Of a stretch of DNA of 28,574 nt, positions 27,420 through 28,574 are shown piece by piece. Source of the stretch: a virus; the IMG/VR virus record IMGVR_UViG_3300044630_000365, positions 1 to 28,574 of that record; one strand, written 5' to 3'. Each line of letters begins with the position of its first letter. Positions within the stretch are counted from its first letter, which is position 1. A program made the position numbers and the translations under genes. The notes under the pieces are model-generated. The model did no database searches, was not told the origin of the DNA, and saw nothing but the letters and a program-made list of their open reading frames with translations.

Positions 27420-27599
27420 ATGGCTAGCATTGACGAAACACAGGCGCAGCTTAACACGCATGAACAAGTCTGTGCGTTTCGATATGAGAGCATTTGTGCG
27501 CGGATGAAGCGTATTGAAAGCCTTGGTATATCTGCTTGCGGCACAATTATTGTATTGCTGATCGGCATACTAGTAAGCGTGCTGCAAAAGGGCGGCTAA
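27420..27599 (+). CDS. XhlA-like small membrane protein, lysis candidate
   Basis: A 59-residue protein with a helical N-terminal half (DETQAQLNTHEQVC, then ARMKRIESLG) and one C-terminal transmembrane segment (ISACGTIIVLLIGILVSVLQ) ending in KGG. This layout matches haemolysin XhlA-type phage proteins, which sit beside holins and endolysins. It could assist membrane disruption or anchor the lysis complex. The sequence is short, so similarity is structural. GGTGG lies 8 bases before the ATG, and the next gene follows after a small gap. Confidence 0.55.
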   Translation: MASIDETQAQLNTHEQVCAFRYESICARMKRIESLGISACGTIIVLLIGILVSVLQKGG

Positions 27600-27608
27600 G
27601 GAGGGCGT

Positions 27609-27803
27609 ATGCGTTTTCTGCGTGCTGCAACCGTTGCGTCTTTGCTAGTGCTTGCTGCTTGTGAAGATCGCTATCGCTATGACTGCCAAGACCCTGCGAA
27701 CTGGCAGGATGAGCTATGCAAGAAGCCTCGGTGTGTCGCTATGGGCTATTGCACCGAATGGCTGATAGATACAGGTGAAGAAGAAGTTGTCGAAGAAGGT
27801 TAA
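27609..27803 (+). CDS. Cys-rich phage lipoprotein, 64 residues
   Basis: AAGGAGG lies 4 bases before ATG 27609. The N-terminus (MRFLRAATVASLLVLAAC) is a signal peptide with lipobox LAAC, so Cys 18 should be lipidated and the rest exported. The mature part has four more Cys (YDCQDPANW, DELCKKPRCVAMGYC) and an acidic tail (EEEVVEEG). I recall similar lipoproteins beside the lysis genes of many podophages. They may alter the outer membrane against superinfection or act as Rz1-like spanin parts, although the usual Rz1 Pro-rich pattern is missing. The next gene overlaps the end. Confidence 0.75.
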   Translation: MRFLRAATVASLLVLAACEDRYRYDCQDPANWQDELCKKPRCVAMGYCTEWLIDTGEEEVVEEG

Positions 27804-28077
27804 GTATTGGTCGCCAGAGGAACTGCTACGTTTCATTGTCGGCGTTGTGCTGTCGTTCACGTTGATGTTTATCGTGGCGACTGTGTTATATTCGCTGATA
27901 TTTGTATCGCAGCCAATGGAGGGACAGTCCCCGAATGACGCTGAGTTTTTTAAGCTGATTAACCCAATAGCTACGTTTATTGTTGGAGCGTTGGCAGGAC
28001 TGATGGCGGGGCAGGGCAGCGGATCGATTAAGCCCAAGAAGCCAGATGAAGGAGAGAAAGATGAGCTTCCTGAATAG
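27775..28077 (+). CDS. Two-helix membrane protein, holin candidate (first paralogue)
   Basis: A 100-residue protein from GTG 27775, overlapping the lipoprotein gene by 29 bases. TTG 27787, preceded by GAAGAAG, is an alternative start. A basic N-terminus (KKKLSKKVKYW) precedes a transmembrane segment (LLRFIVGVVLSFTLMFIVAT, VLYSLIFV). After a polar loop comes a second segment, LINPIATFIVGALAGLMAGQ, and a charged tail (KPKKPDEGEKDELPE). Class II holins have this shape. The second segment closely resembles that in the following protein, so the two look like paralogues. No dual-start motif is obvious. Confidence 0.6.
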   Translation: MKKKLSKKVKYWSPEELLRFIVGVVLSFTLMFIVATVLYSLIFVSQPMEGQSPNDAEFFKLINPIATFIVGALAGLMAGQGSGSIKPKKPDEGEKDELPE

Positions 28078-28552
28078 TTTCGAAAGCAAGCAGGACGGAA
28101 TCAATGACACCGTTGAGTTTGTTGTGCGCGTGGCGATCGTCACGCTGTCGGCAGTTATCCTTGTCGTTGTGCTGGCGCTTGTTGTTGGGATGTTCGTTCC
28201 TAATGACGTTGTGGATAGCACTGCTGTTCTGGAGATGATTAACCCTGCGTTCCAGACTATCATTGGTGCGCTTGTTGGCTTGCTTGGTGGCCTTAGCCTA
28301 AACGCCAATGCGCGTGACAAAGAGCCAGAGCCAGCGCCAGAACCAGAAGCTCCACTTGAACTGACTCCTGTGGTAGCACCAAAGGTTTATGACGATCCAC
28401 AAGGCACAGTCTTTATCGACGAGCCTGAAGATGATGACGATGATGAGTTAGAGCCTTGGGAAAAGTATCGCAACGATCTGCGCTATGATGCCAATGGCGA
28501 TGGCGTAGTTGACGAAAATGACTTCCCTGATTGGCGGAGTGCTGGCAAATGA
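28061..28552 (+). CDS. Two-helix membrane protein with calcium-loop tail (second paralogue)
   Basis: From ATG 28061, with AAGGAG 6 bases ahead (an upstream ATG at 28046 lacks a site), 163 residues. Transmembrane segments lie at about 20-46 (FVVRVAIVTLSAVILVVVLA) and 61-80 (NPAFQTIIGALVGLLGGLSL), the second matching the preceding protein (INP..., GAL.GL). A Pro/Glu linker and an acidic run follow. A loop DANGDGVVDEND at 143-154 then fits EF-hand/dockerin calcium sites (Asp 1, Asn 3, Asp 5, Gly 6, Asp 9, Asp 12). It is probably a holin or antiholin-like protein with a calcium-responsive tail. Confidence 0.65.
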   Translation: MSFLNSFESKQDGINDTVEFVVRVAIVTLSAVILVVVLALVVGMFVPNDVVDSTAVLEMINPAFQTIIGALVGLLGGLSLNANARDKEPEPAPEPEAPLELTPVVAPKVYDDPQGTVFIDEPEDDDDDELEPWEKYRNDLRYDANGDGVVDENDFPDWRSAGK

Positions 28553-28574
28553 GCTTGATTAACCTTCAACAGAA
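28549..28574 (+). CDS. Start of a downstream gene, possible endolysin (partial)
   Basis: ATG 28549 overlaps the previous stop by 4 bases (ATGA), and eight codons (MSLINLQQ) are seen before the edge. The beginning would suit a peptidoglycan-binding domain (many start LQQ.LGV.ADG), and an endolysin is expected after holin-like genes. That is an inference from position only. Confidence 0.5.

Follow-up and report, generated by a model that had tools for sequence, protein, structure and literature searches.

The trigger of phage holins is a long-standing open question. An antiholin blocks its cognate holin; in phages lambda and 21 it arises from a dual start, and antiholins encoded by separate genes also exist. 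Class II holins, such as the phage 21 pinholin S21, share with P2, one of the two proteins described here, two transmembrane (TM) helices, a small-residue (GxxxG-type) second helix and a gene that adjoins that of the endolysin; their N-in/C-in topology is for P2 a prediction from charge. Calcium control in phage lysis is, to our knowledge, known only from endolysins. Calcium-regulated phage endolysins include EndoT5 (PMC10487532) and LysGH15 (PMC4022735), and one mycobacteriophage lysis cassette contains two holin-like genes, LysF1a and LysF1b (PMC13056207). The locus analyzed here likewise encodes two small holin-like proteins, P1 and P2, the second of which ends in a loop of the EF-hand type.

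The window, i.e., the whole stretch of DNA analyzed, is a virus record in its own right (28,574 bases), whose terminase (PF04466, E=2.5e-35) and portal (PF16510, E=2.6e-158) genes are P22-like. Its source is a P22-like freshwater phage, and the wider group consists of widespread freshwater viruses of bacteria. The genes are arranged in the order 59-aa one-TM protein, Cys-rich lipoprotein, P1, P2, GH19 endolysin, and 67-aa one-TM protein, the last two being read from contig L001 (Table 1). This contig comes from a close relative (P1 100%, P2 95%) and extends beyond the window end; its gene after P2 encodes a 205-aa protein that matches Glyco_hydro_19 (E=3.9e-9) and whose first residues, MSLINLQQKIGV, are also those of the window gene. 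Since L001 continues into a GH19 gene, the window genes form a lysis cassette, which is not visible from the window alone because the endolysin gene ends after 26 bases. The P2 stop and the endolysin start overlap (ATGA, 28549-28552). By hydropathy, the GH19 protein has no TM segment and should therefore need a holin, and P2, a small membrane protein beside the endolysin gene, is probably what opens the host membrane. The 59-aa protein had no family match. In contig L012, the stretch 943-2391 upstream of the lysis cassette encodes a long Gly-rich repeat protein that resembles collagen. Matches in four genome contigs fell on metagenome-assembled genome (MAG) contigs of mixed phyla, which are probably stray phage contigs.

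Table 1. Features at the right end of the window (1-based positions; residues are those of the respective protein).
Feature	Position	Strand	Basis or remark
59-aa protein, one C-terminal TM segment, 5' of lysis genes	27420..27599	+	ORF, hydropathy
Cys-rich lipoprotein, lipobox LAAC, motif YRYxCQDPxNW	27609..27803	+	P1's constant partner
P1, 100-aa two-TM holin-like protein, GTG start, phrog_25359	27775..28077	+	ORF, AlphaFold model
P1 predicted helix 1, residues 14-45	27814..27909	+	AlphaFold model
P1 predicted helix 2, residues 53-80, Gly-rich	27931..28014	+	AlphaFold model
Likely Shine-Dalgarno AAGGAG of P2	28049..28054	+	sequence; SD-like motif in 74/77 upstream sequences
P2, holin-like, 163 aa, two TM helices followed by acidic linker and EF-type loop	28061..28552	+	
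P2 predicted helix 1, residues 14-45	28100..28195	+	AlphaFold model
P2 predicted helix 2, residues 53-84, Gly-rich	28217..28312	+	AlphaFold model
Pro/Glu/Asp-rich linker of P2, about residues 88-131, low model confidence	28322..28453	+	sequence, AlphaFold
Conserved tail of P2, PWEKYRNDLRYDANGDGVVDENDFPDWR, residues 132-159	28454..28537	+	pN/pS 0.081
EF-hand-type loop DANGDGVVDEND, 12 residues, residues 143-154	28487..28522	+	loop pattern
Likely Shine-Dalgarno GGAG of endolysin gene, within P2 gene	28536..28539	+	sequence, inference
GH19 endolysin gene, first 26 bases, MSLINLQQ...	28549..28574	+	same start as L001 gene

A first-pass annotation of the window sequence had placed two adjacent two-helix proteins here, with which the open reading frames and the AlphaFold helices agree. 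Its holin-like reading has gained a lysis cassette with a GH19 endolysin, but not a match to a known holin family: the best hit to phrog_785 "holin" had E=0.089 (5/42 members), and a P1 relative reached phrog_9987 "holin" at E=0.074. Fold searches gave no useful match in the PDB (best E=8.4) and only relatives in BFVD.

The P2 reading frame is also open from an ATG at 28046 (listed as 28046-28552). The true start is most likely the later ATG (MSF), which is preferred because a Shine-Dalgarno-like motif precedes it in nearly all of the distinct upstream sequences, and the in-frame ATG five codons (15 nt) upstream occurs in just 5 of the 77. A dual-start antiholin within P2, which this upstream ATG of the window would allow, was rejected for that lack of conservation. 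Simple hydropathy counted the Gly-rich second helix of P2 in part of the relatives only. Mean numbers of Lys plus Arg in the N-terminus, the loop, and the C-terminus were 2.1, 0.75, and 2.0 for P2 and 4.4, 1.1, and 2.6 for P1. Since the fewest positive residues lie between the helices, an N-in/C-in topology with the P2 tail in the cytoplasm is likely, as a prediction from charge only, and tuning by external calcium, one of two sources first considered, is unlikely.

The two proteins resemble each other most around INP and GALxGL, where an ungapped alignment of FKLINPIATFIVGALAGLMAGQGS and LEMINPAFQTIIGALVGLLGGLSL has exactly 10 identities in 24 positions, the number counted by eye at first pass. 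The two window proteins alone gave a BLASTP match within chance (E=4.4). Profiles of the close families aligned with a probability of 67.7% (hhalign, E=4.9e-5) and those of the broad families, which took in 19 P1 and 29 P2 representatives, with 86.9% (E=4.2e-6); none of 200 region-wise column shuffles reached the score of 36.7 (shuffle mean 16.3, maximum 31.8). In a small two-set BLAST, the top cross pair had E=5.7e-10. In MW202520, the short form of P2 reads VDNAEIFKLINPAFNMIVGAFVGTIAG where the P1 counterpart is PNDAEFFKLINPIATFIVGALAGLMAG. These comparisons bear out the suspected paralogy and show that P1 and P2 are homologous; the two are ancient paralogues within a single small family of holin-like proteins with two TM helices. 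In a tree built from few columns and with long branches, they formed two separate, fully supported groups, and each often occurs without the other; the tandem is therefore not a recent duplication, which we ruled out.

Tandem homologues with the same TM2 pattern could also be a holin and a calcium-tuned antiholin, P1 and P2 or the reverse, that form hetero-oligomers via the shared second helix. Both genes are present in 140 of 154 fetched loci, a proportion that, like those below, describes close relatives because loci were the best 80 per scan, and in mycobacteriophages the timing of lysis is set by a pair of holin-like genes together (PMC13056207). However, each gene is also found without the other in many phages, in most of them beside an endolysin gene, so that neither needs the other in all phages, and a conserved dual start is absent. 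We therefore consider this arrangement quite unlikely; compared with what was first proposed, the lysis setting has become stronger and the obligate holin/antiholin pair weaker.

Relatives are numerous, with 305 of P1 and 334 of P2 in IMG/VR. From a relative without a tail, encoded on a MAG contig of Rhodobacteraceae (L244), 74 further loci were reached, which contain short forms of ~70-95 aa as well as tailed forms. Searches around MW202675 and around actinophage DSL-LC01 yielded 360 and at least 592 P1 relatives, respectively, and a P2 adjoining P1 was absent in the best 80 of each. P1's constant neighbor is not P2 but a small Cys-rich protein, mostly a lipoprotein, whose gene overlaps the P1 start in the window and whose motif lies just upstream of P1 in 75/76, 77/77, and 57/71 loci. 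The motif-bearing gene overlaps P1-type starts across very different phages, an actinophage included (e.g., L158 2828-3016, TM-anchored; L159 7753-7989; L160 7727-7939). MW202462 encodes this lipoprotein, P1, a separate Rz/Rz1-like pair (assigned by eye), and GH19. Since this phage has its own Rz/Rz1-like pair, the lipoprotein is probably not the o-spanin (Rz1); its partner P1 is without a periplasmic domain, which also speaks against an Rz1 role, and neither point amounts to proof.

In independent tblastn searches of 50,697 phage records, P1 and lipoprotein queries each matched four records, which were identical for the two, and 271 of 285 motif hits in 2.3 Mb lay within 330 nt 5' of P1. A recognised endolysin within 2.5 kb was absent in 73 of 74 actinophage-type P1 loci, so that a role of P1 in lysis may not hold for all phages. 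P2-type genes adjoin endolysins almost always. All of this would suit P2 as the holin and P1 plus lipoprotein as an independent module, for example a lysis-inhibition or superinfection-exclusion pair, that stands in the cassette by chance. On the other hand, where phages of the MW202675 type have P1 without P2, a GH19 gene lies no more than 2.5 kb away (69 of 69 loci); in the sampled loci P1 is the sole two-TM protein close to the endolysin, and it is a homologue of P2. An independent module appears unlikely.

The C-terminal part of P2 consists of an acidic linker and a DxNxDGxxDxxD-type loop, both present as first noted. Linker length varies from 26 to 66 aa among relatives, and the C-terminal end stays fixed, reading PWEKYRNDLRY-DANGDGVVDEND-FPDWR in the window. 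The loop pattern and its canonical ligands (oxygen at positions 1, 3, 5, 9, and 12; Gly at 6) were found in 149 of 149 distinct tailed P2 proteins: D1, D5, and G6 are invariant, position 3 is N or T, and D occupies position 9 in 145 and position 12 in 148 proteins. Ligand codons vary synonymously with the residues unchanged, and mean pN/pS from simple pairwise counts is lower in the tail than in the membrane core (0.139), i.e., the tail is under stronger purifying selection. The likely Shine-Dalgarno sequence of the endolysin gene in the last P2 codons of the window may help explain the conserved WR, but not the loop.

Pfam EF-hand_1 scored the window protein and the tail at 12.7-15.4 bits, below the cut-off of 25.4, and AlphaFold predicted, besides the two long helices of P2, a fairly confident tail with short helices only (132-135, 140-142, and 152-154); we therefore use the name "EF-hand-type loop". 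The P2 profile matched only polcalcin EF-hands among PDB sequences, weakly (E about 0.6), and a search of 50,697 phage records for the tail as a module of any other phage protein gave no match. A dockerin, the other label given at first, does not fit: type I dockerins require two calcium loop-helix repeats and P2 has one loop, with Dockerin_1 at E=0.035 at best (5/42 members).

A C-terminal EF-type loop of the DKDGNGIPDHLE type is also present in 12 of 59 distinct actinophage-type P1 relatives, and looks like a second, separate gain. The 12 proteins (loci L415, L431, L434, L453, L463, L465, L468-L471, L478, and L480) end in D-[KR]-[DN]-G-N-G-I-P-D-x-x-E, a separate predicted calcium loop of EF or TSP3 type. 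In DSL-LC01 (L159 7454-7756), the gene 5' of that for the lipoprotein specifies a membrane protein of 100 aa that contains DGKLDADEINQVF, another EF-like stretch. A bold reading of the two gains, in P2 with GH19 and in actinophage-type P1, would be a calcium-gated holin within one two-TM family that acquired the loop at least two times: calcium leaking in would be sensed by the cytoplasmic EF-type loop, and positive feedback would make lysis all-or-none. We regard this as improbable.

The type of endolysin mostly differs between tailed and tail-less P2. P2-type genes lie directly 5' of endolysins from three families, GH19, GH108, and M15. Tailed P2 is followed by GH19 in 135 of 135 distinct proteins with enough downstream sequence; among 20 tail-less forms, 17 have an endolysin next (GH108 in 15, M15 in 1, GH19 in 1) and for 3 none was found. 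The pairing of the tail with GH19, together with a linker that varies in length before a fixed end, as for a tethered binding motif, would be expected if the tail were an endolysin-docking or structural arm in which calcium or another divalent ion is a constitutive fold stabiliser and carries no signal. Yet the P2 of L255 is tail-less and still precedes GH19, a cytoplasmic EF-type loop should be largely empty at resting calcium, and a calcium-type loop is also present in actinophage-type P1 relatives, close to which no GH19 was recognised. Such a docking or structural arm without a calcium signal is unlikely in our estimate, and the association with GH19 may reflect shared descent.

Further small membrane proteins are encoded in some of these cassettes. 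In GH108 cassettes a three-TM protein adjoins the short P2 form, and in MW202753 a GTA_holin_3TM gene precedes it; either could be the holin instead of the short P2. Loci with P2 only (L250, L253, L270, L280, and others) often have a 52-59-aa one-TM protein (e.g., MTGNLSTVELIGQLWPVVLAFISLTIILAKMDVRLGVAEEKIKTLFELW) between P2 and GH19, and in L243 and L248 an Rz-like gene, assigned by eye, comes after the GH19 gene downstream of P2.

Taken together, we favor, with a probability of roughly 0.4, the reading that P2 serves as a class II-like holin, as part of one, or as a holin regulator, with a predicted cytoplasmic tail that is calcium-responsive or docks the endolysin, and that P1 is a second holin or regulator. 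P2 would oligomerise via its Gly-rich second helix and thereby give the GH19 endolysin, itself without a TM anchor, passage through the inner membrane; P1, linked to the Cys-rich lipoprotein, would be a second holin or a hole-opening regulator coupled to an envelope sensor. Resting cytoplasmic calcium is about 0.1 uM in E. coli, at which the P2 loop, predicted to be cytoplasmic and flexibly tethered by the acidic linker, would be empty. The first membrane leak would let calcium enter and the tail fold, and the folded tail would then commit hole growth or alter contact with the endolysin or neighboring subunits. This calcium step is plausible and is the least certain part of the explanation, since the presence of an EF-type loop does not ensure calcium binding at physiological concentrations; P1/P2 homology, synteny with endolysins, and conservation and selection of the tail are computed. 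We know of no P1- or P2-type protein that has been tested for lysis.

Given the strictly conserved loop, calcium may have a part in timing or confirming host-cell bursting, which is open to experiment. Hundreds of phage contigs encode a holin-like protein whose calcium-type loop is conserved and under selection, a small system in which point mutations could test a chemical trigger. The analysis also gives a lysis-cassette context to phrog_25359, which is listed without function, and to proteins filed just as "EF-hand domain-containing". One of these, A0A6J5NMR5 from an uncultured Caudovirales phage, is 48% identical to P2 in a whole-length alignment; its UniProt name, "EF-hand domain-containing protein", records the EF-hand only and gives no lysis function. 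We found no report of an EF-hand holin in the literature searched, which covered few subscription journals.

Compared with S21, P2 shows no sequence match and adds the linker and the EF-type loop; phage 21 has a SAR endolysin, whereas the GH19 enzyme here is without a TM anchor, and no conserved dual start is present. GTA_holin_3TM (PF11351), which shares the MW202753 cassette with a short P2 relative, has three TM helices, and Pfam did not detect it in either P1 or P2. In the mycobacteriophage pair, LysF1a combines two TM helices with an N-in/C-in topology and LysF1b differs from it in layout, whereas P1 and P2 are homologous, and the word calcium is absent from that paper (PMC13056207). Finally, EndoT5 and LysGH15 have their calcium loop in the peptidoglycan hydrolase itself, whereas in P2 the loop is part of a holin-like membrane protein.
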